A stretch of DNA of 34,969 nt from Candidatus Methylomirabilis lanthanidiphila (GCA_902196205.1 CABIKM010000031.1:1-34969); one strand, 5' to 3'. Positions 444 through 20,091 are shown, counted from the stretch's first letter. A program made the numbers and translations. Notes: generated by a model not told the origin, from the letters alone.

Positions 444-956
444 ATGACGCGACGATTGTTTTTCAGCAAGACGTTGATCAGGGCGTACCTCACCTTTTTT
501 GTCTGCATTGTCGTCTTGTATACGCTGTTGCGGACAAGTGTGATGCGGGAACTGATCGGGCAGCCGCTGGCCATGGCGTTCACTGTAGTCAGTGGATTGG
601 TGCTGAACCTTTTGTCCCTCAAGGCGACAGCATCGGGTACGTTGCTTCAGGTTGAAGGATTTGCGGCCAGGATCGATGATGTGTGTACCGGTATCTTTGT
701 CGTCGCGATCTTTGTCTCCGCCGTCATGGCCTATCCAAGCCGGATGAAGGAGAAACTGAAGGGTTTCTTGCTGGGGGCATCCGTCATTTTCTCCCTGAAT
801 CTCATCCGAGTAGTAAGTCTCATGTATATCGGCCGCTACTTTCCAACATTCTTTGAAACGGCGCATCTCTTGATCTGGCAGTCGTTGGTGATCTTTGCCG
901 CCCTCCTGGCGTGGCTCTACTGGACGGAGCGTTTTGTCGGTGCTCCCCAGCACTAG
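444..956 (+). CDS. xrtH: Exosortase H-like transpeptidase
   Basis: A 170-residue multi-pass membrane protein of the exosortase/archaeosortase family. These enzymes cut exported proteins carrying a C-terminal sorting segment and are thought to join them to an envelope anchor. The three family active-site residues are visible: Cys81 in DDVCTG, Arg122 in NLIRV and His141 in ETAHLL, each at the edge of a hydrophobic segment. The short length, lack of the N-terminal half found in long exosortases, and the partner gene downstream point to the XrtH subtype, known to act on IPTLxxWG-CTERM proteins. That subtype call is from memory of the family. No protein in the window ends with a CTERM signal, so its substrates must lie elsewhere. 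The start codon has only a weak ribosome site. The 3' end overlaps the next gene, so the two are probably co-translated. Confidence 0.82.
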   Translation: MTRRLFFSKTLIRAYLTFFVCIVVLYTLLRTSVMRELIGQPLAMAFTVVSGLVLNLLSLKATASGTLLQVEGFAARIDDVCTGIFVVAIFVSAVMAYPSRMKEKLKGFLLGASVIFSLNLIRVVSLMYIGRYFPTFFETAHLLIWQSLVIFAALLAWLYWTERFVGAPQH

Positions 957-1601: not shown

Positions 1602-2567
1602 CTATTTGAGGATGGTTCGGATCGGCGGGGCGGTCTGCGTGGAAGAGGAGTAGACGATCATCTCGGCGACGAGGCCGAACGATACAAGCTGGATGCCGGC
1701 GATTACCAGGACCGCGCCGATGAGCAGCAGCGGACGCCCCCCGATCCATTGACCGAGGAACCAGCCGACCGACAGGTAGGCGATGATGCCGAACCCCGCA
1801 ACTCCCATCAACAGACCCAGCAGCCCAAAGAGGTGGAGCGGTTTTGCAGTATAGCGGGTGAGCATCACCACGGTCAGCAGATCGAAGAGCCCCCGAGGAA
1901 TTCGCTCGATGCCGTATCGTGAACGACCATACCGTCGTTGACGGTGTTCAACCTCGACCTCCGCCACCCTGAAGCCGCGCCAGTTCGCCAGGGCCGGAAT
2001 AAAGCGGTGAAGCTCCCCATGAAGTCTGAGCTCCTCGACAACGGTTCGGCGATACGCCTTGAATCCACAATTGAAGTCGTGGAGGGGCAGGCCGGTCATG
2101 CAGGCGGTGACTCGATTGAAGATGGTCGACAACAGTCGCCGCGTTACGGGATCCCGGCGCTGCACCTTCCAGCCCGAGACAAGATCGTAACCCTGCTCCA
2201 GTTTGGCCAGCAACTTCGGAATCTCCCTCGGATCGTCCTGCAGGTCGGCGTCAAGCGTGATGATGACCTCGCCCTGTGCCTCGCGGAAACCGACCGAGAG
2301 CGCGGTCGCTTTTCCCTGGTTCGACCGGAGTTGAATAACCTTGACCCGCTCATCCTTGGCGCGCAGCCCCTTCAACACATCAAAGGAACCGTCGGTGCTG
2401 CCGTCGTCCACGAAAATCAACTCGCCCGTGCCCGTGTGCAGGCCCAGCGCGGCGTCCAACGCGGCGTACAACTCGGGCAAGCTGTCCGCCTCATTCAGCA
2501 GGGGGATGACCACCGACAGTGAGACGACGTTACCCGCGCATGCCTCGCCCACTCGGCCTCTCCTCAC
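1602..2567 (-). CDS. DPM1/GtrB-like polyprenyl-phosphate glycosyltransferase (GT2)
   Basis: A GT-A fold family 2 glycosyltransferase of 321 residues. It probably loads a sugar from a nucleotide donor onto undecaprenyl phosphate at the inner face of the membrane. Visible motifs are SVVIPLLNE, VDDGSTDG (53-60), LDADLQDDP (about 105-113) and an R-rich RRYGRSRYG stretch near 212. Two C-terminal hydrophobic segments (about 245-272 and 281-305) match the DPM1/GtrB/ArnC topology. It is the last gene of a minus-strand operon with the Asp-box lipoprotein and the TMTC-like protein, and its start overlaps the TMTC-like stop. GTG 2567 and GTG 2552 are both possible; 2552 has a purine-rich ribosome site just upstream. 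The pairing with GT-C enzymes suggests it makes their lipid-linked donor. The sugar cannot be read from sequence. Confidence 0.85.
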   Translation of the reverse strand: MRRGRVGEACAGNVVSLSVVIPLLNEADSLPELYAALDAALGLHTGTGELIFVDDGSTDGSFDVLKGLRAKDERVKVIQLRSNQGKATALSVGFREAQGEVIITLDADLQDDPREIPKLLAKLEQGYDLVSGWKVQRRDPVTRRLLSTIFNRVTACMTGLPLHDFNCGFKAYRRTVVEELRLHGELHRFIPALANWRGFRVAEVEVEHRQRRYGRSRYGIERIPRGLFDLLTVVMLTRYTAKPLHLFGLLGLLMGVAGFGIIAYLSVGWFLGQWIGGRPLLLIGAVLVIAGIQLVSFGLVAEMIVYSSSTQTAPPIRTILK

Positions 2568-4530
2568 CGATCTTCTGACGCAGCGCCCTGGCCTCCGGGA
2601 AATCGGTTCTCAACGATAACGCCTTGGTAACCTCTACCAGCGCGAGTTCCTTCTGCCCCTGTCGATAGTATGCCTCGCCCAGGAAATAGTGAAACCTCGG
2701 ATCCGATTCTCTCAGTTTGACCGCCTCGATCAGGCGGGCGATCGCCTCCTGGATCATCCCTTTCTCGAGGTAGGCCTTCCCCAGATTGGCGTGCGCGTCG
2801 GCAGAATCCGGCGCGATGCGAACGGCGTCGGCAAACCGCTGTTCGGCCTCGTCCAGCTTTCCCTGCAACGCCGCCACGATACCGCGGTTGGTCAGGATCT
2901 CGGCTCGAAAGCCGGGGGTAATCCGGTTTGAGCCGAGGGCGATCTCGAATTCCCGCGCAGCTTCATCGAGCTGTCGCCGATTGAGGTGGATCAGCCCGAG
3001 ATTGACATGCGCCTTCGGGTAGTCCGGCCAGATCTCAAGCGACGCGCGAAGGTGTTGCTCCGCCTCATCCAACTGTCCGTGGCGGAGCAGGACGACCGCA
3101 AGGTTGTCGTGATTGACGGCGTCATCCGGTTTAATCTCGAGCGCCGTGCGGAACTCCTGATAGGCCTCCTGGAAGCGGCCCTTGCGAAGCGCAATCTCGC
3201 CGACGTTGGTGTGGGCTCTGGCCGACTCCGGGGCGGTCCGGATCGTCTTGGTCCACAGCGTCTCGCTGTCCCGCCAGTCACGGTTTCTGACTGCCGTGCG
3301 AATACCGAGTAAGACAACGAGTACGGCAAAAGCCGCCACGATGGCGGTCTGTTGGCGTTGCCGGGCCATGATCCTTTCCGCAAGCGCGCCGGCGGTGAGA
3401 AAGAAGCCAGCCGATGGGAGATAGAGGTAATGTTCGGCAACGATCTCGTGATGGGGGATGATCTGGGACACGGGCAGCAGCGTGACGAAGAACCACAAGC
3501 CGCCGAAGGCGGCCCAGCGATCCAGACTCAAGAGGCGGTAGATCCCCCACCAGGTTCCACCGAGGACGATGACCGCAAGGATGACCCGCGCCTCAAAGAG
3601 GGAGTGCGAGATCGGAAAGGCGTTAAAAGAATAGTCGGCGTTAAGCGTAAGCGGGAACACCAGCAGCTTCAGGTAGTGGGCAAAGATCCTGGCGCTGGTC
3701 AGCACCGTCGGCCACAACCCGCCGCCGTACATCTCGCGCTGCTGGCTCGGGTTGGCGATGAACGCATAATACACGACGAGGAGCAGCAGCCCGCCGGCGC
3801 CGGCGGCGTAAAGCCGGCTGTTGCGTCGGAGTGCCGTTCGCACCCCCTCTGCCATAAGCCGCCAGGATGTCGCCGGACCGGCGGCCTTCCCGGCCGGTAT
3901 TGAGCGGATGATATCGTAGCCCACGCACAAGATGGGAAGGGTGATCCCCATCTCTTTCGACATGAGACTGAGAAGGTAGCCGGCTCCCGTCAGAGCCAGG
4001 TACCTGGGTTGATCGGTCTCACGGTAACGGATGTACCAGATGACACCAAGCAGATAGAACAGACTGAACAGAAGATCGCGCCGGCCGGAGATATACGCCA
4101 CCGACTCGGTCTGGACGGGATGGACGGCGAATAGGACCGCCGCCAGAAGAGCCGGGCGAGCGTTGCCGAGTAAGGTCCGAAACAGCGAAAAGACGAGCGC
4201 GCTGTTGAAGATGTGCAGGGCGATATTGACGGCGCGGTAGCCGACCGGGTTGAGGCCGAAGAGGGAATAGTCCAATGCATGGGAGACCGTCCGGAGCGGC
4301 CGGTAGGCCGCATCGCCATAGAAGCCCAGAAGGGCGGGGACATTCCAGAGGTTCCGAATCGACGGCCGCTTTGCGATCAAGCCCAGGTCATCGAAGACAA
4401 ATTCATTCGATAGGGAGTTCAGATAGGCCAGGATGATCAGCCCGGCGAGCAGCAGGACGACAGGAGCCGGACGCAGCCAGACAGGAGTCGTTGCCGGGGC
4501 AGTGCCCGGCCGCCCGGCGAGACGCCTCAT
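2530..4530 (-). CDS. TMTC-like membrane glycosyltransferase with C-terminal TPR repeats
   Basis: A 666-residue protein with a multi-pass N-terminal half (about 1-430) and six TPR repeats (about 435-650). The first extracytoplasmic loop carries NEFVFDD (Asp47-Asp48), the acidic pair that marks the active site of GT-C enzymes. Other family blocks are SVAYISGRRD, LNADYSFNAFP and PVSQIIPHHE. Eukaryotic TMTC proteins transfer O-mannose to protein targets, and bacterial relatives are mostly uncharacterised. Here the substrate is inferred to be an exported protein, held by the TPR array, with a lipid-linked sugar as donor. It starts with an ATGA overlap on the upstream lipoprotein gene. It is clearly paralogous to the protein encoded at 7162-9624, whose TPR array is longer. 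Confidence 0.82.
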   Translation of the reverse strand: MRRLAGRPGTAPATTPVWLRPAPVVLLLAGLIILAYLNSLSNEFVFDDLGLIAKRPSIRNLWNVPALLGFYGDAAYRPLRTVSHALDYSLFGLNPVGYRAVNIALHIFNSALVFSLFRTLLGNARPALLAAVLFAVHPVQTESVAYISGRRDLLFSLFYLLGVIWYIRYRETDQPRYLALTGAGYLLSLMSKEMGITLPILCVGYDIIRSIPAGKAAGPATSWRLMAEGVRTALRRNSRLYAAGAGGLLLLVVYYAFIANPSQQREMYGGGLWPTVLTSARIFAHYLKLLVFPLTLNADYSFNAFPISHSLFEARVILAVIVLGGTWWGIYRLLSLDRWAAFGGLWFFVTLLPVSQIIPHHEIVAEHYLYLPSAGFFLTAGALAERIMARQRQQTAIVAAFAVLVVLLGIRTAVRNRDWRDSETLWTKTIRTAPESARAHTNVGEIALRKGRFQEAYQEFRTALEIKPDDAVNHDNLAVVLLRHGQLDEAEQHLRASLEIWPDYPKAHVNLGLIHLNRRQLDEAAREFEIALGSNRITPGFRAEILTNRGIVAALQGKLDEAEQRFADAVRIAPDSADAHANLGKAYLEKGMIQEAIARLIEAVKLRESDPRFHYFLGEAYYRQGQKELALVEVTKALSLRTDFPEARALRQKIGEERPSGRGMRG

Positions 4531-7161: not shown

Positions 7162-9624
7162 ATGTCACGAGTAAAATCTGCTACGACGGAAAAAGCGCGA
7201 CGTTCCGGTGAACTCGCCATATCCGCACAAAAAGCCGCAGGGATCAGGGGTATCGCCGACTGGGTCCTTCCGCACAAGACGCTTCCTGTCGTCCTGCTGC
7301 TGGCTGCGCTTACAGGACTGATCTACGCCAACTCCCTGCGGAATGAGTTTGTATTTGACGACGGCGGGCTGATCGTCTCCAATCCCCAAATCCGCAATCT
7401 CGCTCAGTACCCTGAGTTCCTGAAATGGGACGTGAATCGGCCGATCCAGAGGGCCTCGGATCGGGGCATCACCCATCGGCCGCTGCGAACGGCCCTCCTG
7501 GCCGTTGAGTATCACCTGTTCGGTCTCAACCCCGCCGGTTACCGTGCCGTCAACATCCTGCTCCATGCCGTGAATGGCGTACTGGTCTTTCTCCTTTTGA
7601 GGCTGTTGTTCGGCGGATCGCGTCCGGCGCTCTGTGCCGCCCTGCTCTTTATTGCGCACCCTATTCAGACGGATTCGGTCGCGTACATCTCCGGCCAGCG
7701 CGACGTCCTGTTCACCACCTGGTACCTGCTGGGGCTCTGGGGGTTCGTGCGCTATCGGGCGACGGAACGGCTTTCGTATCTCGGTGTGACAGGTTTCGCC
7801 TATGTGCTGGGTCTCATGACCAAGGAGATGGCGATCACCCTTCCCGTCCTGTGCGCGGTCTACGATCTCATTCACCGCATGCCGGGCGCCGGCTCCGACG
7901 GGCGGGTCTCTCCGGTACAGGCGGTCAGGGACGGCCTTCGCGACATCATTACCCGCGATCGGTGGCTGTACTTCGGGGCGGCGGCGGTTGTGGTTGCGGC
8001 GCTGTACTATTTTGTCGTTATCGCGAATCCCAGCCATCAGGAGACGCTGTACGGCGGGGGCCTGGGACCCACGCTGAACACCAGCGCCAGAATTGTGGTC
8101 TTCTATCTCAAGCAGCTCGTCTTTCCTGCAACACTGAATGCCGACTACTCGTACGACGCCTTTCCGGTGTCGACCTCTGGCGCCGATGGTCGCGGACTGC
8201 TGGCGGCCGCGGCCCTTGCCGGAATCGGATATGGGCTTGTGCGTCTGCTGCGGGTCAACCGGTGGGCCGGCTTTGGCGGCCTCTGGTTCTTCATTACGCT
8301 GCTGCCGGTGTCCCAGATCATTCCGCACCATGAACTGGTGGCGGAGCATTTCCTGTATCTGCCGTCGATCGGCTTTGCCGTGGTCGCGGGGTACGGTGTC
8401 CATCGCGGGCTCGAGAGCCGGTATGCGGCGGGTGTCGCGGCAGCATTTCTTGTGATTATATTGCTCCTGGGCGTACGAACCGTGATCCGTAACCGCGACT
8501 GGGCCGATGAACTGACGCTCTGGACAAAAACCGTGCAGACGGCGCCGCGGTCGGCCAGAGCCAGGATCAACCTGGCTCAGAGCTTGAAAGCCCACGAGCG
8601 ATATCAAGAGGCCATTGAACAGTTCCAGGTTTATTCGACCATCAAACCGGAATCGCCATCCGGCCATGTCGGGCTGGGCGATACCTACCGGGTGTTGGGG
8701 CGTTACGAGGAAGCGGTTGAGCATTTCAAGAAGGCGATCGAGCTGAACCCGACGTCGGCTGCGCCCGTCGTCGGACTGACACAGACGTATGCGGCGATGG
8801 GTCGGACAGATCGGGCGACGGAACTGTCGGTCCCGGTGCTGGGGTCGCAGTTCGCCGACGAAAAGAGCTATCTTCAGCTTGGTGATGCCTACCGGGCGGC
8901 AGACCTGTATGATCTGGCAGTGCAGGCGTATCGCAAAGGACTCGAGTTAAACCCGTACGATGTGGCGCTGCACACGTCGCTCGGAAAGGCTTATGGCGCC
9001 TCCGGCCGGCACGATCGTGCTCTGGAGGCCTACCGTGAGGCGGTCAAGCTGATGCCCCGTTCACCCATCAGCCATACCAACCTCGGCGCCGCCCTCCTGG
9101 AGATGGGACGGATAGAGGAGGCGATGACGGCCCTGCAGGAAGCCCTCCGGTTGTCCGCCGATTATGCTGATGCCCATAATAATCTGGGGATTGCGTATCA
9201 TCGGCTGGGGCGTCAGGCTGAGGCCGAGGCGTCGTTCAGGCAGGCCCTTGCGTTGCAGCCGGACTCGACGGAGTTTCGGACCAACCTGGCCATGGCCCGG
9301 GTCGGTTCATCCGAACCGTCGCTGGAACAGTTGGAGCGGGAGGCGCGCGAGAATCCGACCTCCGCCAAGGCCCACTTCAATCTCGGCAGTGTCTACGGCA
9401 ATCGGGGCGACATGGCGCGCGCGGCTCGCGAGTTCCAGCGGGCGCTGGAGCTCGATCCCGGCAACCCCCGCATCCATTATGCGATCGGGTTGCTGCGCTA
9501 TCAGCAAGGCGACCGTAAGGCGGCGCGTCAGGCATGGGAGCGCGCCCTCAGCTTCGACCCGTCATTCACCCCGGCCCGCGACCGTCTGGCGGAACTCGGG
9601 ATAAGGGGGCGCGCGGCCAACTGA
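7162..9624 (+). CDS. TMTC-like membrane glycosyltransferase with long TPR array
   Basis: An 820-residue paralogue of the protein encoded at 2530-4530. The membrane half (about 40-450) repeats the same blocks: NEFVFDD with Asp66-Asp67 as the likely GT-C active-site pair, SVAYISGQRD, LNADYSYDAFP and PVSQIIPHHE. The C-terminal half holds about ten TPR units (about 471-810), one of them degenerate, against six in the paralogue. An N-terminal basic extension of about 35 residues precedes the first membrane segment. The family is thought to glycosylate extracytoplasmic proteins from a polyprenyl-phosphate sugar. The different TPR length suggests different protein clients. A GT39-like gene follows after 33 bases, probably in the same transcript. 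Confidence 0.82.
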   Translation: MSRVKSATTEKARRSGELAISAQKAAGIRGIADWVLPHKTLPVVLLLAALTGLIYANSLRNEFVFDDGGLIVSNPQIRNLAQYPEFLKWDVNRPIQRASDRGITHRPLRTALLAVEYHLFGLNPAGYRAVNILLHAVNGVLVFLLLRLLFGGSRPALCAALLFIAHPIQTDSVAYISGQRDVLFTTWYLLGLWGFVRYRATERLSYLGVTGFAYVLGLMTKEMAITLPVLCAVYDLIHRMPGAGSDGRVSPVQAVRDGLRDIITRDRWLYFGAAAVVVAALYYFVVIANPSHQETLYGGGLGPTLNTSARIVVFYLKQLVFPATLNADYSYDAFPVSTSGADGRGLLAAAALAGIGYGLVRLLRVNRWAGFGGLWFFITLLPVSQIIPHHELVAEHFLYLPSIGFAVVAGYGVHRGLESRYAAGVAAAFLVIILLLGVRTVIRNRDWADELTLWTKTVQTAPRSARARINLAQSLKAHERYQEAIEQFQVYSTIKPESPSGHVGLGDTYRVLGRYEEAVEHFKKAIELNPTSAAPVVGLTQTYAAMGRTDRATELSVPVLGSQFADEKSYLQLGDAYRAADLYDLAVQAYRKGLELNPYDVALHTSLGKAYGASGRHDRALEAYREAVKLMPRSPISHTNLGAALLEMGRIEEAMTALQEALRLSADYADAHNNLGIAYHRLGRQAEAEASFRQALALQPDSTEFRTNLAMARVGSSEPSLEQLEREARENPTSAKAHFNLGSVYGNRGDMARAAREFQRALELDPGNPRIHYAIGLLRYQQGDRKAARQAWERALSFDPSFTPARDRLAELGIRGRAAN

Positions 9625-11571: not shown

Positions 11572-12786
11572 ATGAACAGGACGGAAAAGGGGATCAGGCC
11601 GGTGAGTGTCCATCAAGGGTGTTGCTGCCGCGGCGTAAGCCGGCGGGAGATCCTCCGGTGGGGCCTGCTGAGTGTCGGAACCTGGATGCTCCGGCCGGTG
11701 GCGCAGGCGGGCGCCGCGATCGCGCCCGGGGGGTACGCGGCCAAGAGCCTGGCCGGCGCCGAAGGGACGCTTCGCGCCTTGATCCTCCAACATGCAAAGG
11801 CGCCTGACGATCCCTGGGCGATGATGCACGGCCTCAGGGCCATCGGCAAGGGGTTTGCTGCCAATGGCGATTCGGCGGTGGATTACCTGTCGCAGCATAC
11901 CCTGCAGGAGAAGGTGGAGCGGGAGACGCGGTATCTGGTGACGCCGCTTGCGGTTGAAGGCCATGCGAACACCCTGCTCAAGACCTTTCTGGAGGCGGGC
12001 GTCGGTCTGGATTATCCCATCACTGCGGCCGGCCGTCGTCGCCGGGTTTCAGACCTGCTGGAGGATGCGCGGCGGCTTTTTGCCTATGAGCCCGGCAAGA
12101 TCAACGGATCGGCCGACGAACTTGCGTGGAGCATCATCGCCTTCTCCATCACCACGTCTCCCGGGCAGGACAAATGGCAGAATGCCCGGGGGCAAGAGGT
12201 CAGGCTGCGTGACGTGGTGAGGTATGCCTTTGATACGGTCGAGTGGGCCAGCGCCGATTTCCGCAAGGCGATGCGCGAAGATCGCACGCCGACGTGGAAG
12301 GATCGGATTTCCAACTTTACGTGCGGCGGAACCCACCTGCTGTACAGTCTGGGGGTGGCCGTCCGGTACGGGCATCTGGGTGAGGAGGGCCGCCGTCGCT
12401 ATGCCGACGCGATCCGTGTACTGATCTGGCGGCTCCGGATCGACCTCCACCTGCTGGACGAGTATTACAAGACCGTTGCCAAGGCCTATCCCGGGAAGGA
12501 CGCCAACTGGCGACCCTACGAGATCGATAGCCGGTTGAAGTTCCTGGGCCATGCCTTTGAAGTCCTCAATTATGGCCGCCTCTATCGTCTGGTTGCGCTG
12601 ACATCCGATCAGGAGCGCGAGGTCCGGCGGGCAGGCGAGCGACTGGCGGAGACGGTTCAGGAGCTTCAAGGGGTGAATCTGGGGAAGATCAGGCAGGCGA
12701 ATTTGAAGCTCTTTGACCTGCTGATCGGCGATGCGTGCCACGCCTACCACGGGATCCATATGGTCGTCGGAGAGAATCAGGTCTAA
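11572..12786 (+). CDS. Tat-type exported protein of unknown function
   Basis: A 404-residue protein. Its N-terminus has SRREILRW (23-30), close to the twin-arginine pattern S-R-R-x-F-L-K, then a hydrophobic stretch to about 43 and a plausible cleavage after AQA. This suggests export of a folded protein. The mature part is largely helical and charged, with blocks such as DPWAMMHGLRAIGKG, TPLAVEGHANTLL, CGGTHLLYSLGVAVRYG and a final GDACHAYHGIHM. The recurring His and Trp residues look like conserved sites, but I do not recognise a family. The Cys triplet CCC before the Tat motif is unusual. A lipoprotein gene follows within 21 bases, so the two are probably co-transcribed. The start is preceded by GGAG at very short spacing. 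Confidence 0.72.
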   Translation: MNRTEKGIRPVSVHQGCCCRGVSRREILRWGLLSVGTWMLRPVAQAGAAIAPGGYAAKSLAGAEGTLRALILQHAKAPDDPWAMMHGLRAIGKGFAANGDSAVDYLSQHTLQEKVERETRYLVTPLAVEGHANTLLKTFLEAGVGLDYPITAAGRRRRVSDLLEDARRLFAYEPGKINGSADELAWSIIAFSITTSPGQDKWQNARGQEVRLRDVVRYAFDTVEWASADFRKAMREDRTPTWKDRISNFTCGGTHLLYSLGVAVRYGHLGEEGRRRYADAIRVLIWRLRIDLHLLDEYYKTVAKAYPGKDANWRPYEIDSRLKFLGHAFEVLNYGRLYRLVALTSDQEREVRRAGERLAETVQELQGVNLGKIRQANLKLFDLLIGDACHAYHGIHMVVGENQV

Positions 12787-12806: not shown

Positions 12807-13292
12807 ATGAAATGGAGTCGACCGCTTCTGGCGGTGTTGCTTATCGGCGGGCTTGCCGCGTGCGCCGGACGGACCCACAGCGGCAGCGCGGCCCCGGCGC
12901 CCGCGATCGCGATCCCCAGTCCTGAAGAGGCGCTGAGAGCCGAGGCGACCAAGTTCTGGGAGGCCCGGATAAAGGGCGACATGGTGACGCAGTACAACCT
13001 GCAGGAGCCGAAGGCCAGGGAGGGGGTCACACTGACCGCCTTTACCCTGGCGCGCGGGACTGTCGTGTTTTTAACCTATAAGATCACGACGGTCGAGACG
13101 GCCGGCGATGAGGGCAAGGTGACGGCTGCGACCACCCTTCGGATGAACCACCCCAAAATGGAACGGTTCGGCGCGTTTGACCAGATCGTCAGCATGCTGT
13201 GGGTGCGTCAGGGGGGGGTCTGGTACGTCAAGGGCAGCCAGGAAGCCGCCGGCAAGCCGCTGAAGGCCGGGGAGAGCCCGCCGCGAGAGTGA
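12807..13292 (+). CDS. Small lipoprotein, possibly NTF2/SnoaL-like fold
   Basis: A 161-residue predicted lipoprotein with the lipobox LAAC (Cys19) after a short hydrophobic signal. The start at 12807 follows GAAGGAGACGAT; the upstream in-frame extension to 12735 would bury the signal peptide. The mature domain opens with EEALRAEATKFWEARIKGD and ends with a VWYVKG strand pattern. That resembles small NTF2-like lipoproteins with an N-terminal helix, a curved sheet and a terminal W-y-v strand; the assignment is by pattern only. It follows the Tat-type protein closely and may work with it. No catalytic function can be read. Confidence 0.72.
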   Translation: MKWSRPLLAVLLIGGLAACAGRTHSGSAAPAPAIAIPSPEEALRAEATKFWEARIKGDMVTQYNLQEPKAREGVTLTAFTLARGTVVFLTYKITTVETAGDEGKVTAATTLRMNHPKMERFGAFDQIVSMLWVRQGGVWYVKGSQEAAGKPLKAGESPPRE

Positions 13293-13302
13293 AAGATTTC
13301 GC

Positions 13303-13331
13303 TTGACAAGGCACCGTGAACTACGTATAAA
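13303..13331 (+). promoter_or_regulatory. Near-consensus sigma70 promoter for the nine-cysteine exported protein
   Basis: TTGACA (13303-13308), an exact 17-nt spacer and TATAAA (13326-13331) match 11 of 12 consensus bases. It is the best promoter in the window. A start near 13338 would give a leader of almost 300 nt before ATG 13634. It implies strong expression of the downstream exported protein. Confidence 0.78.
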
Positions 13332-13337
13332 GGGACG

Positions 13338-13633
13338 AATCTTTACCGGCGACGTGACCAGTGCGTCGAGGGATAAAGCTGCATGGACGCGATGAGGGGT
13401 TGGTAACACACTGGCTGAAGGAGGTGATGCCGCGAAATTGAGAGGTAGTGATCTCCTGGGCGGACACTGCGGGGCGCGACGGAACGGGGGGTTGTACTTG
13501 TCGGCAATCCGGCAAGGTGAAGCCCGAGGGGTAGGGGATCAGGCAGTAGGAAGCAGCTCGTACCATAACGTGTGTATGATCGACGATTGCAGGCAGTCGT
13601 GATAGTCCGCACCAAACTAAAGGAGGTAGGGTA
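13338..13633 (+). promoter_or_regulatory. Long structured 5' leader, identity unknown
   Basis: The leader shows no ORF with coding character. CTTGTCGG (13497-13504) and CCGGCAAG (13509-13516) form an eight-pair stem, one pair being G-U, closed by a CAAT loop. ACGATTG and CAGTCGT (13583-13600) form a seven-pair stem with a CAGG loop. The leader ends in a strong ribosome site (AGGAGG at 13621). I compared it from memory with cobalamin, c-di-GMP, c-di-AMP and glycine riboswitch cores and saw no match. It may be a regulatory leader, an mRNA-stabilising leader or a small RNA; which one is open. Confidence 0.5.
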
Positions 13634-15238
13634 ATGAGAAAATGGTTGGGCATTCCCCTGTCGTTCCTGTTTGTCCTTGGCCTGTTTGTACCGGCATGGG
13701 CGAACTCGGAACTGACCCCCGGTGGACGGCTCTTCTTCCCCTTGTGGGACGTCTCCACCCCAAACCGGCTCACCTTCATCGTGGTGACTCGTGAAGCGTT
13801 GAACGAGACACAAACCATTAAGAGTAGACTTACAGGGACAGCAGACGGCGCTGTTGCCAAGAAGATATGGTATCTCCAGGGCACCGGCAACTGTATCCCC
13901 CGTGGCGTGAACGGCGCTGTTGGTAGCGCCGAAGAAGGGTCCGGCAGTATCAACCGAACGGATTTGGGGGGAACCAGTTTCCCGCCAGAGACGGCAAAAG
14001 GCGTCTTTGTCGATGACGTCCACTTCGAGTATTACGGCAAGTCCTGCAACAGCTCGGATGAGACCGTGCATATGAGCTGCGGCGACGTCGATCTGTTCCT
14101 CCTGGCCTCCTACGACAACGCGACCCGCAAGCCGAGGATCGCCTTTGCGGATGTCGCCGCTGAAGGCCGGGGCGCGCTCGATGTGCATCTGGTTACCAAC
14201 TCCACGCGTGATCCGGCAGAGCGCAAGCTGGAGGATTCGCTGATGGGTCACGCCATCATCTCCGACCTGTCCGAAGGATGGGCCGCTGTCTATCCGGCCG
14301 CCGCGGCGAAGGCCACCTCCTGCTTCATCTGTTCCCTGATCGACGGCGGTGAGCCGGTCGGCTACGAGAACTATCCGATGGAGGTCTACCTGCCGTGGTC
14401 CTATGCAGACCTCTGGGCCGCTCCGGGCGGCACCCTGCGCAACGTCCTCTCGCTCTGGGGCCCGGGACTTCTGCCGGCGGACAATCTGAGCGACACCACT
14501 ATCAGCCTCTCGTGGAAGTGGTGGGACGGTCGAGAGCGCTGGAAGGAAGGCTCCAAGATTAAGCACTCGGTCATCGCGCCGTTGGGCGGCCCGGGCATCG
14601 CCGGTCTCGATTCCCCGCTCGATACGGCCGGATTCGTGGTAACCAATTTCACCTGTGATCATGCGCCGGGCGGCGGCGTCACCGGTTTCGGCAGCGCCCC
14701 GATGTCAGGCAAGGCTGAGAACGACGGGTTCCCGCGTGTCGGCAGCGCGGCCGGCGGCCAGGGATGCGGTCCGGGTAATGCAGCCGGGGTGCTCTCGGCG
14801 GCCGATCCGGAACATACCAGCGACAACTTCGAGTCGGCGCCGGACATCGATGCCGTCGGGCATTCGATTCAGCAATCCACCTCGCTCGGCTGGTGGCGGT
14901 TCCAGCTTCGCCGGGATCAGGATGCACCGATCGGGTTTAATCCGGTTCTCGACCACTCCGGTCGCGGCCTCGTAGGCGTGGTTCTGTCCACCTCCGGCGG
15001 CACGACCCCGTTCTTCTCGGTGGGCGACTCCTGGCGGCTGTGGCACAAGGATCCGTGTAAGGTCGCCCAGAGCGCCCAGACCATGGGTCCGCCCAATGTT
15101 CGCGATGCGGGCATTCGTGCGGCGGTTGGCCCCGATTCGGGTGATGTCATCTCCATCTTCAACGCCCTGCCGTTCTCGGTTGAGAAGAAGGTGTGTGACG
15201 GTCGCGGCGAAGATCTGGTATCTCTGACGGAGCAGTAA
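13634..15238 (+). CDS. Exported nine-cysteine surface protein, paralogue A
   Basis: A 534-residue secreted protein of unrecognised family. The signal peptide ends at AWA (residue 23), and the mature protein begins NSELTPGGRLFFPLWDVS. It shares long blocks with the next protein (15363-16847): VDDVHFEYYG, GRGALDVHL, SDLSEGWAAVYPAAAAKA and a GYENYPMEV block. Nine cysteines sit at matching places in both, including a TSCFIC pair (CxxC), which suggests disulfides or a metal site; there is no CxxCH, so it is not a c-type cytochrome. Aromatic and Gly-rich content fits a beta-rich extracellular protein. It has no lipobox, membrane anchor or CTERM tail. The strong promoter, long leader and perfect terminator suggest high expression as a monocistronic unit. 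A structural or surface-layer role is a guess. Confidence 0.78.
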   Translation: MRKWLGIPLSFLFVLGLFVPAWANSELTPGGRLFFPLWDVSTPNRLTFIVVTREALNETQTIKSRLTGTADGAVAKKIWYLQGTGNCIPRGVNGAVGSAEEGSGSINRTDLGGTSFPPETAKGVFVDDVHFEYYGKSCNSSDETVHMSCGDVDLFLLASYDNATRKPRIAFADVAAEGRGALDVHLVTNSTRDPAERKLEDSLMGHAIISDLSEGWAAVYPAAAAKATSCFICSLIDGGEPVGYENYPMEVYLPWSYADLWAAPGGTLRNVLSLWGPGLLPADNLSDTTISLSWKWWDGRERWKEGSKIKHSVIAPLGGPGIAGLDSPLDTAGFVVTNFTCDHAPGGGVTGFGSAPMSGKAENDGFPRVGSAAGGQGCGPGNAAGVLSAADPEHTSDNFESAPDIDAVGHSIQQSTSLGWWRFQLRRDQDAPIGFNPVLDHSGRGLVGVVLSTSGGTTPFFSVGDSWRLWHKDPCKVAQSAQTMGPPNVRDAGIRAAVGPDSGDVISIFNALPFSVEKKVCDGRGEDLVSLTEQ

Positions 15239-15282
15239 GAACGAACACGTTTTCACATCTCGAAATACAGGGTCTGATATGA

Positions 15283-15320
15283 GACAACAGGCCGGGGGTT
15301 ACCACCCCCGGCCTGTTGTC
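15283..15320 (+). terminator. Strong rho-independent-type terminator hairpin
   Basis: GACAACAGGCCGGGGGT (15283-15299) and its exact complement (15304-15320) form a perfect 17-pair stem with a four-base loop (TACC), followed by a short GTTT. It lies 45 bases after the stop of the first nine-cysteine protein. The T-tract is short, but the stem is by far the strongest in the window. Confidence 0.82.
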
Positions 15321-15362
15321 GTTTGCGCGCCATAGAGAGACGACAGGACGGGTGACGGTATA

Positions 15363-16847
15363 ATGACCCCCAGATGGATCGCTATAACTGTAACGCTGAT
15401 TGTGTGCGCCCTTTACGCCGGGCTGAGTTCGGCGAATTCCGAGCTTCACCCGGGCGGGCGTCTGTTTTTTCCGTTATGGGATGTGTCCAGCCCGAATCGG
15501 GTGACCTTTATTATCCTGACGCGAGCCGCGCTGAACGAGCGTCAGACCATCCAGGCTAAGATGACGTCAACCGCCGGAGGAGCCGCCGTCAAGCAGATCT
15601 GGACGCTGTCGGGCGCGGGCCAGTGCCTGCCGAGGGGGACCGGCGGGACGGAGGCGGATGTCAACCGGACCGATCTTGGAGGAACAGCAGGGGCGCCGAT
15701 CTTTGTCGATGACGTCCACTTCGAGTATTACGGCCGCGGTTGTACCAGCGCGAATGAGGTCGTACACATGAGCTGCGCCGACGTCGATCTTTATCTTCTG
15801 GCTTCGCCGGACAACCCGAACCGCCGGCCCCGCATCGCCTTTGCGGCCGTGGCCGGCGAGGGGCGGGGCGCCCTCGATGTCCATCTGATCTCGAACAGTA
15901 CGGGCAACAGCGCCGCCCGAAAACTCGAGAATTCGCTCATGGGCCACGCTGTCATTTCGGACCTGGCCGAGGGGTGGGCTGCGGTCTATCCCGCTGCGGC
16001 CGCCAAAGCGACGTCGTGCCCCGTCTGTGCCCGGATCGACGGTACTCCTGTCGGTTACGAAAACTATCCGATGGAGGTCGACCTGCCGTGGGCCTTCGCC
16101 GACCTCTTTTCGGCGCCTGGCGGCGCCGTGCGGAATCTGCTGTCGTTATGGGCCCCCGGCCTTGTGCCCGGGGCGAATCTCAGCGATACGTCGGTCGGCC
16201 TGGATATCCGCTGGTGGGACGGGCGGGAGCGGGCCTTCGGCGGATCGGCCACCGCTCATGCGATTCTTCGGCCGTTAGGCGGGCCGCCGCTTCCCGGATT
16301 CGATGCGCCTGTCGCCGGTCTGTTCAGTACGGCGGGGTTTGTCTGCGGCCACGACCCGAGCGGCTCGATGGCTGAGAACGACGGTTTCCCGAGATCGGGA
16401 AGCGATGCCGTTGCCTGCGGCCCGCCCGAGCTGCCTGACCCGGCCCATCCGAGCGATAATTTCGAGGCGTCGGGGGAGATCAACCAAACCGGACACTCGA
16501 TCCAGGGTTCGAGGCCGATCGGCTGGTGGCGGTTCCGGCTTCGTGTCGACGGCGCCTCACCGCTGGAGATCGGCACGCACTCCGGCCGGGGTCTGGTAGG
16601 GGTGGTGCTCTCGGTGACGCCAGGCGCCGCCTTCGTGGGAGTGGGCGACGCCGTTCGGGCATGGCACCCGGATGCCTGCGAGCCGGGCCAGAGCGGCCGT
16701 ACCGTCGGCCCCCCCCACCTGCGCGATGGAGGGGTCCGATCGAACCGCGGCAGCGGCTTTACTCCTGCGGATCTTCTCAGCCTCTTTAACGTTTTTGATC
16801 CGGATGACCAGGCCGCGATTTGCGCGGGCGCCTTCGGCGGCGGTTAA
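15363..16847 (+). CDS. Exported nine-cysteine surface protein, paralogue B
   Basis: A 494-residue tandem paralogue of the protein encoded at 13634-15238. The signal peptide ends near residue 24 (LSSA), and the mature start NSELHPGGRLFFPLWDVS is almost identical to paralogue A. The same blocks follow in the same order, including VDDVHFEYYG, GRGALDVHL, EGWAAVYPAAAAKA and GWWRF. The mature protein again has nine cysteines with the TSCPVC pair. It is about 40 residues shorter, mainly through loss of loops in the last third. Its G+C is higher than that of paralogue A. No separate promoter is clear after the strong terminator: a TATAAT at 15359 overlaps the start codon and cannot serve it. The ribosome site is weak, so expression may be lower. 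A sulfotransferase gene follows after 54 bases. Confidence 0.75.
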   Translation: MTPRWIAITVTLIVCALYAGLSSANSELHPGGRLFFPLWDVSSPNRVTFIILTRAALNERQTIQAKMTSTAGGAAVKQIWTLSGAGQCLPRGTGGTEADVNRTDLGGTAGAPIFVDDVHFEYYGRGCTSANEVVHMSCADVDLYLLASPDNPNRRPRIAFAAVAGEGRGALDVHLISNSTGNSAARKLENSLMGHAVISDLAEGWAAVYPAAAAKATSCPVCARIDGTPVGYENYPMEVDLPWAFADLFSAPGGAVRNLLSLWAPGLVPGANLSDTSVGLDIRWWDGRERAFGGSATAHAILRPLGGPPLPGFDAPVAGLFSTAGFVCGHDPSGSMAENDGFPRSGSDAVACGPPELPDPAHPSDNFEASGEINQTGHSIQGSRPIGWWRFRLRVDGASPLEIGTHSGRGLVGVVLSVTPGAAFVGVGDAVRAWHPDACEPGQSGRTVGPPHLRDGGVRSNRGSGFTPADLLSLFNVFDPDDQAAICAGAFGGG

Positions 16848-18067: not shown

Positions 18068-18850
18068 ATGTTGAGTCTCTATCGCCATAGTGGTCTGATC
18101 GGCAACTTTGTCAAACGCGATCTGCTGGCCCGGTACAAAGGGTCGGCGATGGGGGTCTGCTGGTCCGTTGTTCAGCCCATCGTGATGTTGATCCTGTATA
18201 CTTATGTATTCTCGACCATCTTGAAGGTGCGGGTCGGACCCACCGAAGGGACCGGTATCTTTGCCATCTACCTCTTTTGCGGGATGCTTCCCTGGAATGC
18301 CTTTCAGGAAGGGGTCAGCCGGTCCGCGACCGTGATTCTCGACAATGCGAATCTGATCAAGCGCACCGTCTTTCCGGCGGAGATTTTGCCGATCTACATT
18401 GTTGCGTCAGGACTCGTGAATGAACTGATCGGTCTTGGGGTGCTGCTGGCAGCGGTCCTGCTGACAGCCAAGACCATCAGTCCGGTCCTGCTGTTCCTTC
18501 CCGTGATTGTTCTCTTGCAGGGGGCCTTTACCCTCGGGTTGGCGTGGATCATCGCAGCGATCAACGTGTTTCTGCGGGATGTGGGCCAGCTCCTCGGTAT
18601 GGCGCTCAGCCTCTGGATGTTCCTGACACCGGTGTTTTACCCGCCCTCGCTGGTCCCCCCGTCGTTAGAATGGATTCTCTACATCAACCCGATGATGTGG
18701 GTGGTGGAGTCGTATCGGGGTATCGTCTTGCGCGGGGTCATGCCGCCGTGGACCGGCTTGGCGGCCCTGGCGTTCAGCTCGTTGACGGCTTTCGTGGTTG
18801 GGCGTCTCCTGTTTCGGCGGATGCAGGGCGCCTTCGCCGATGTGATCTGA
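18068..18850 (+). CDS. wzm: ABC-2 type polysaccharide export permease (Wzm-like)
   Basis: A 260-residue inner-membrane permease with about six hydrophobic segments. The N-terminal amphipathic stretch LIGNFVKRDLLARYKGSAMG is characteristic of Wzm/KpsM/TagG exporters, as is the late NPMMWVVESYRGIVLRG block. It would form the channel through which a polyprenyl-linked polysaccharide crosses the inner membrane, with the ATPase encoded next. Its stop overlaps the ATPase start (TGATG). The ribosome site AAAGGAGAT precedes ATG. Confidence 0.9.
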   Translation: MLSLYRHSGLIGNFVKRDLLARYKGSAMGVCWSVVQPIVMLILYTYVFSTILKVRVGPTEGTGIFAIYLFCGMLPWNAFQEGVSRSATVILDNANLIKRTVFPAEILPIYIVASGLVNELIGLGVLLAAVLLTAKTISPVLLFLPVIVLLQGAFTLGLAWIIAAINVFLRDVGQLLGMALSLWMFLTPVFYPPSLVPPSLEWILYINPMMWVVESYRGIVLRGVMPPWTGLAALAFSSLTAFVVGRLLFRRMQGAFADVI

Positions 18851-20091
18851 TGCCGGCTATCCAGGTCGACGGTCTGTCGAAGATGTACCGGATTTATGCG
18901 CGTCCCAAGGACCGGTTAATAGAGTATCTAGTCCGCGGCCGCAAGCGCCACCAGGAGTTCTGGGCCCTCAGGGATGTGACCTTTCAGGCCCCGACGGGCT
19001 CCACATTCGGTTTAATGGGAGAAAACGGGTCCGGCAAAAGCACCCTGCTCCAACTGCTGGCAGGCACGTTAACCCCGACATCCGGCGTACGCCGGGTACG
19101 CGGGCGGGTGTCGGCCATCCTTGAGCTGGGGGCCGGTTTCAATCCCGATTTTACGGGACGGGAAAACGTGTTGATGACCGGCGCGATCATGGGGATCGCG
19201 CGGCGAGAGATGGCGGCGCGGCTTGAGGATGTGATCGCCTTTGCCGAGATCGGCGACTTCATCGACCGGCCTCTCAGAATGTACTCAACGGGGATGTACC
19301 TCCGGCTCGCCTTTGCCGCAGCGACCACGGTGGATCCGGATGTTCTGATTGTCGACGAAGCGCTCTCGGTCGGGGACGAGTACTTTCAGAAGCGCTGCAT
19401 CGATCGCATTGAGACGTTCCGGAAGGCCGGCAGGACGATTGTGTTCTGCTCGCACAACAGCTATCAGCTTCGGATGGTCTGCGAGCAGGCGATCTGGCTG
19501 CGCGCCGGGCGTGTGGCGATGATGGGCGATACTCTGAAGGTGGTGACCGAATACGAAAGCTATCTGCGGGGTCGCATGGCCGAGCGTTGCGCCGATCCGC
19601 CGGTATCGGGGCCGGCGACGGGGCAGCGCGGACCGCGTCCGGCTCCGTGGATCACCGATGTCTCTCTTATCGTCAATGGCCAGGCGGGCGCCCGTCACGA
19701 GGTACAGACCGGCGATGATCTGGCTATCGCCGTCTCCTATGAGGTTCCCGCCCCTCCCGCGGCGGTCCATGTCGGCGTAAGGATTTTCCGGAACGACGGC
19801 ATTGTGTGCTATGGAGCCGGCACCCATCTGGACGGACTCACACCCCCGCCGACCTCAGGGAGCGTGATCCTCACGTTTCCGAACATCCAACTCCTGGCGG
19901 GAGAGTATTATGTGTCCGTCCACCTGCTCGATGAAACCGGCCTGCATCACTACGAAGAACGGAGAAGGGCGTGTAGTTTCAGAGTCTACCAGCCCTTTAT
20001 CGCCATCGGGTTGTGCCAACTGAGGCATGAATGGAGCGTTGAGGCGACTCCGAAAGACGCGGCTTACCTCCACAGTGAGATGGTCGGCTGA
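18850..20091 (+). CDS. wzt: Polysaccharide export ABC ATPase with C-terminal cargo domain (Wzt-like)
   Basis: A 413-residue ATPase. Walker A is GENGSGKST (57-65), the signature is YSTGMYLRLAFA (145-156) and Walker B is VLIVDEA (165-171), followed by a SHNSYQ switch region. Residues beyond about 265 form an extra beta-sandwich-like domain with VHVGVRIFRNDG and GEYYVSVHLLDETG. This matches the Wzt_C domain that recognises a modified chain end in some O-antigen systems, and implies that export waits for a terminal modification. Methyltransferases downstream are natural candidates for that cap. The start at 18850 gives the usual N-terminus and a one-base overlap with the permease stop; a longer ORF from 18544 lies inside the permease gene and is not used. 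Confidence 0.9.
   Translation: MPAIQVDGLSKMYRIYARPKDRLIEYLVRGRKRHQEFWALRDVTFQAPTGSTFGLMGENGSGKSTLLQLLAGTLTPTSGVRRVRGRVSAILELGAGFNPDFTGRENVLMTGAIMGIARREMAARLEDVIAFAEIGDFIDRPLRMYSTGMYLRLAFAAATTVDPDVLIVDEALSVGDEYFQKRCIDRIETFRKAGRTIVFCSHNSYQLRMVCEQAIWLRAGRVAMMGDTLKVVTEYESYLRGRMAERCADPPVSGPATGQRGPRPAPWITDVSLIVNGQAGARHEVQTGDDLAIAVSYEVPAPPAAVHVGVRIFRNDGIVCYGAGTHLDGLTPPPTSGSVILTFPNIQLLAGEYYVSVHLLDETGLHHYEERRRACSFRVYQPFIAIGLCQLRHEWSVEATPKDAAYLHSEMVG

Follow-up and report, generated by a model that had tools for sequence, protein, structure and literature searches.

Two tandem genes, A and B, within a 34,969-nucleotide stretch of DNA (record CABIKM010000031.1; here the window) from a member of the genus Methylomirabilis may encode bulk-expressed, glycan-associated surface proteins, the messenger RNA (mRNA) of A being stabilized by an element resembling the stabilizing Shine-Dalgarno sequence (STAB-SD) of Gram-positive bacteria. 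We favor this reading tentatively, with a confidence that stops a little short of even. The window is the complete contig C31 of a 3.05-Mb genome that is 99.98% complete (the own genome, G000), and the related public records are metagenome-assembled genomes of Candidatus Methylomirabilis/Methylomirabilota. Methylomirabilis couples methane oxidation to nitrite reduction and has an unusual polygonal envelope, and its diderm phylum is known mostly from enrichments.

In the proposed mechanism, A and its tandem duplicate B would be Sec-exported, probably disulfide-containing proteins of two tandem beta-sandwich domains. They would associate with a surface glycan that is made and exported by the products of the locus (PMT-like and other glycosyltransferases, a Wzm/Wzt exporter and sulfotransferases), alongside the surface layer (S-layer) lattice but distinct from it. 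A near-consensus promoter and an mRNA protected at both ends would account for the high output of A. At the 5' end, an extended Shine-Dalgarno (SD) element in the long leader would bind a 30S subunit and block 5'-3' decay by RNase J, as a STAB-SD does, while a perfect 3' hairpin would block decay from the other end and limit transcription into B. The features concerned are as follows.

13303-13331, plus strand: sigma-70-type promoter, TTGACA (13303-13308), 17-bp spacing, TATAAA (13326-13331)
13339-13633, plus strand: untranslated leader of A, from a predicted transcription start site
13418-13429, plus strand: extended SD-like element AAGGAGGTGATG, complementary to the 16S rRNA 3' end, proposed as a STAB-SD or ribosome standby site
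13620-13626, plus strand: Shine-Dalgarno sequence of A, AAGGAGG, 7 nt before the ATG
13634-15238, plus strand: gene A, exported 534-aa protein with a signal peptide (aa 1-23) and nine cysteines, with family homologues in the genus
15283-15299/15304-15320, plus strand: perfect 17-bp hairpin 3' of A (z = -6.74), terminator or 3' mRNA stabilizer
15363-16847, plus strand: gene B, exported 494-aa paralogue of A without a leader of its own

A preliminary description of the window had reported two paralogous open reading frames (ORFs) with signal peptides, a mature start at NSEL and nine matching cysteines that include a CxxC pair, all of which the ORFs and their alignment confirm. A and B are about 58-60% identical (E 3e-176; 291 of 539 alignment columns), their signal peptides end in AWA and SSA with NSEL next, and they have in common the block NSEL-x-PGGRLFFPLWDVS. 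All nine cysteines of A, those of the CxxC (C230/C233) included, align with cysteines in B, which has a tenth within its signal peptide. The matching holds for the pair but not for the family: since only C138 and C378 are widely conserved among the homologues, the nine-cysteine set appears to be a property of the A/B pair of one species. Within the family A and B are closest to each other, and their identity to the remaining members is only 22-30%, which suggests that the tandem pair is lineage-specific. Comparison of B with A gives a nonsynonymous divergence (dN) of 0.35 and a synonymous divergence (dS) of 1.40 by NG86, and B is under purifying selection.

The family was said in the same description to be unrecognized, and it remains so: A and B have no sequence match in Pfam, NCBIfam or PDB, and none to an enzyme or cytochrome family. 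In a sample of 15 Methylomirabilis genomes and 32 other genera of the phylum, homologues occur in 11 of the former and were found in none of the latter. When 84,980 species genomes were scanned with a pattern, only Methylomirabilota gave confirmed matches, with the limit that confirmation used the divergent A sequence and distant relatives could escape it; a tblastn search of plasmids with a short relative as the query gave no match. The family thus appears to be undescribed and, as far as searched, restricted to Methylomirabilis. A second subfamily (L058-L063) consists of shorter exported two-domain proteins of about 272 aa when mature, without the leader, and is present in six genomes of the genus; it was not detected in the own genome.

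A structural likeness comes from this short subfamily. The AlphaFold2 (AF2) model of the relative L060 (273 aa mature), made from an 18-sequence alignment, is all-beta, with a predicted local distance difference test score (pLDDT) of 79.8 and a predicted template modeling score (pTM) of 0.81, and can be read as two tandem beta-sandwich domains. In Foldseek a stretch of the model matches TM1070 (1nc7) with a probability of 1.00, E 3e-5 and TMt of 0.75-0.80 for three chains, and TM1070 is the only solved structure that superposes well locally on the model. TM1070, from Thermotoga maritima, is the prototype for the ASRAH domain, which is predicted to bind sugars, and exported ASRAH dyads linked to glycosyltransferases occur in actinobacteria (PMC2739507). 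The likeness to the ASRAH superfamily (Anabaena sensory rhodopsin transducer; PF07100) thus includes the local superposition and, with the secreted two-domain ASRAH lipoproteins of actinobacteria, the exported dyad architecture and the linkage to glycosyltransferases. The hallmark Asn at the end of strand 2, nearly absolute in ASRAH proteins, is retained in 16/16 family members other than A and B. A relative also gave one weak match to DUF5719 (E 0.0022, below the cut-off), a domain for which no literature was found. Matches in a viral fold library were only global beta-sandwich or capsid matches with a root-mean-square deviation around 20 Å and were disregarded.

The promoter of A is the only 11/12 site on either strand of the window, where 0.17 such matches are expected from shuffles, and the earlier claim that it is the best promoter in the window is upheld. 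The leader, described as 300 nt long, is about 295 nt from the predicted start site. It had also been called structured, which is not the case. Its minimum free energy (MFE) has a z of +0.28 against 100 shuffles, 62 of which fold at least as well; the leader core has no consensus base pair; and an Rfam search at the gathering threshold and at E<=5 returned nothing. A structured leader or riboswitch is rejected on the MFE and the lack of conserved structure.

Conservation of the leader was followed in nine syntenic genes, namely A and the genes of G001, G003, G004 (G004:C1:214087-215448), G005 (G005:C8:422774-424006), G006, G008, G010 and G013. G005, whose gene and neighbors fit the published S-layer region of mela_00855 (PMC8671808), is presumed from that region to be M. 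lanthanidiphila. Every one of the nine promoters is a 10-11/12 match with its hexamers 17 bp apart; the leaders measure 180-295 nt, and each contains AAGGAGGTG or a near form of it, often after a G-run. The extended anti-SD complement lies 96-218 nt upstream of the start codon in 9/9 leaders, and its pairing with the 16S tail (-17.0 to -21.3 kcal/mol) is stronger than that of the gene's own SD (-10.2 to -13.7 kcal/mol); for A the values are -19.3 kcal/mol for AAGGAGGTGATG and -13.4 kcal/mol for the gene SD. The motif was spotted by inspection and tested afterwards, and the element has p<=0.015 against dinucleotide shuffles in each leader, the nine genes being related and the p-values not independent. 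Pairwise identity of the leaders is 36-55%, except for one closer pair (72%). The complement of the element is present at the 3' end of the 16S rRNA in the own genome (a match on C10, recognized by sequence). RAAGGAGGTGA occurs at 17 sites in this genome, of which only that of A was seen in a promoter-led leader far from a start; the others mainly look like gene-proximal SDs, sites within ORFs or the 16S end. The promoter and leader layout is absent at B and at the non-syntenic family members (G002 and the second copy in G008).

The system that the leader element most resembles is the cry3A mRNA of Bacillus thuringiensis, in which a STAB-SD in the 5' untranslated region (UTR), without initiating translation, retains a 30S subunit and so stops RNase J1 (PMC4113751). 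The Methylomirabilis element is likewise an SD-like 5'-UTR sequence, placed 96-218 nt before the start codon as against near -129 in cry3A; it has no consistent upstream ORF and may be non-initiating too, and the host has RNase J (TIGR00649, 605.7 bits against a cut-off of 400). If the element works as proposed, 5' mRNA stabilization by a non-initiating SD would extend from Gram-positives to a diderm phylum. Elsewhere in the own genome, another AAGGAGGTGATG (L074; G000:C40:20178-20189) lies directly downstream of a promoter-like stretch (TTGACG...TAATGT) and 117 nt upstream of a gene for a secreted RTX-like repeat protein with its own SD, and is a second possible non-initiating SD.

Downstream of A, the 17-bp inverted repeat is the only one of at least 12 bp in the region. 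It had been described as a perfect 17-pair terminator; the hairpin is indeed perfect and of that length, but it is followed by no real U-tract, only the tail GTTTGCGCG, and the terminator scan makes no call. Syntenic orthologues have perfect 3' hairpins of 13-17 bp, usually 25-38 nt past the stop codon, with stems that vary by compensated changes and, in several cases, T-rich tails. Conservation of the promoter, leader element and 3' hairpin in syntenic orthologues lends indirect support to the expectation that A is produced abundantly; a literature search on expression of the A and B genes contributed nothing.

Several points weigh against A and B being glycan-associated surface proteins with a protected transcript. 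The AF2 model of A itself, from a 12-sequence alignment, is unusable (pLDDT 42.5), and the fold is transferred to A and B from a 25%-identical relative. A and B have Arg in place of the strand-2 Asn, the ASRAH Trp at the start of strand 1 is found in no family member (strand 1 of the family starts R-[IL]-x-x-P), and PF07100, the Pfam model of ASRT, has no match in 94 genomes of the phylum. A and B further differ from ASRAH proteins in having no significant sequence match to them, large insertions, nine cysteines and no lipobox. Because the hallmark Asn and Trp fail in A and B and PF07100 has no match, A and B may be said to work like ASRAH proteins rather than to be such proteins. A and B show no membrane or cell-wall anchor and could be periplasmic or released. 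The analogy with cry3A is imperfect as well: Methylomirabilis is a diderm NC10 bacterium, whereas STAB-SDs were described for Gram-positives; the cry3A element is close to the 5' end, whereas this one lies 70-127 nt from the predicted 5' end, unless the transcript is processed; and in the leader of A the element is predicted to be base-paired, with a mean unpaired value of 0.16. Finally, mass spectrometry of SDS-boiled S-layer patches from M. lanthanidiphila found only mela_00855 (PMC8671808).

Alternatively, A and B could be periplasmic or released proteins for sensing or scavenging sugars, made constitutively and not part of the surface structure. The ASRAH-like fold, predicted to bind small sugars, and the lack of an anchor or recognizable sorting tail in A and B agree with such a role, which we nevertheless consider unlikely since the companion genes serve the synthesis and export of polysaccharide, not uptake, and solute-binding proteins normally go with importers. 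Similarly low weight is given to the possibility that ribosomes use the extended SD to translate a leader peptide from a short regulatory upstream ORF (uORF), with the long leaders acting by attenuation or translational coupling. An ATG does follow GGAGG by 2 nt in four leaders (those of A, presumed M. lanthanidiphila, G008 and G013), and in presumed M. lanthanidiphila a 34-codon frame ends on the main ATG. A 2-nt spacing is too short for normal initiation, however, and a start codon within 15 nt is lacking in 3/9 leaders. No uORF starting from the extended SD is consistent among the nine leaders: reading frame, length (4-34 codons when counted from the four ATGs) and peptide sequence differ from one to another, nor is there conserved structure for attenuation.

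A reading of A and B as structural subunits of the S-layer, replacing or joining a lattice of the mela_00855 type, is more doubtful still. The demonstrated S-layer protein of the genus is mela_00855 of M. lanthanidiphila (PMC8671808). Like A and B, it is exported, is encoded in the same locus region with glycosyltransferases and has a similar leader layout, but it is a 316-aa protein with an IPTL-CTERM tail, has no homology to A and B, and has a separate orthologue in the own genome. This orthologue (G000:C14:6185-7168; 38% identity, E 5e-26) is intact, is the sole match in the own genome to the IPTL-CTERM tail in a TIGR04174 search, and lies near a glycosyltransferase and a UDP-sugar dehydrogenase (names read from the sequences), as has been reported from M. 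lanthanidiphila; neither A nor B shows sequence similarity to it or has the tail. In favor of a subunit role, A and B are exported, probably abundant and encoded in a glycan locus, an S-layer gene of the mela_00855 type lies 12.5-13.4 kb from the family gene in four relatives, and S-layer genes have a similar but weaker purine-rich leader motif. Against it, the own genome retains the intact orthologue, and although presumed M. lanthanidiphila encodes a family member, mela_00855 was all that its S-layer patches gave. The suggestion in the preliminary description of a modified surface or S-layer-like protein thus keeps its support from export and the conserved surface-glycan locus and loses it in the lack of homology to mela_00855 and of an IPTL-CTERM tail. 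An S-layer-associated role for A and B is possible; identity with the S-layer protein is unlikely. With its conserved place in a glycan locus and what looks like a design for high output, this second exported family is a concrete target for envelope proteomics.

The leader has several GGA motifs, AAGGAGG among them, but regulation there by an RNA-binding protein such as CsrA is very improbable: no CsrA match was found in the nearly complete own genome, though another RNA-binding protein could act at the element.

A broader proposal, and something of a long shot, is that each Methylomirabilis genome expresses its main secreted surface protein from one dedicated cassette of promoter, extended-SD leader and 3' hairpin, and that this cassette can stay in place when a non-homologous protein is swapped in. 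Were this so, a STAB-SD-type stabilizer in a diderm bacterium would be tied to an exchangeable surface protein. Two genomes without the family have a promoter and a leader with a G-run and extended SD before unrelated exported proteins (L120, G012:C43:31477-31532; L121, G007:C401:828-898). A cassette before other proteins is not established, because a held-out leader model built from family leaders alone gave no more than a weak partial match (E 0.05) in G012 and did not match the G007 leader.

The neighborhood of A and B had been described as containing an exosortase, glycosyltransferases and sulfotransferases, and all of these are in the window, which has two sulfotransferases near the pair besides the glycosyltransferases. 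Other features of the locus are the following.

444-956, plus strand: exosortase-like ORF near the contig edge (PF09721, E 1e-7)
2530-4530, minus strand, and 7162-9624, plus strand: TPR-fused PMT-like glycosyltransferases, resembling TMTC-type protein O-mannosyltransferases
11572-12786, plus strand: 404-aa exported protein of unrecognized family with a twin-arginine-like N-terminus, 38-47% identical to its counterparts at this locus in most of the other genomes
12807-13292, plus strand: small lipoprotein gene (LAAC lipobox) directly upstream of A; other genomes have a homologue beside the family gene at the syntenic locus
18068-20091, plus strand: polysaccharide exporter downstream of the pair, with an ABC-2 permease (PF01061) and a Wzt-like ATPase (PF00005 with Wzt_C)

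The 404-aa protein has no Pfam or NCBIfam match and ranks with the best conserved proteins that the locus encodes. Most relatives have one family member directly after the same small lipoprotein gene, together with many shared companions that include the 404-aa protein, a BNR propeller protein, TPR/PMT-like glycosyltransferases and a family 2 glycosyltransferase, and a Wzm/Wzt exporter lies near the family gene in several of them. The TPR/PMT-like glycosyltransferases adjoin the family 2 glycosyltransferase, and together they may form a protein O-glycosylation set for the exported neighbors.

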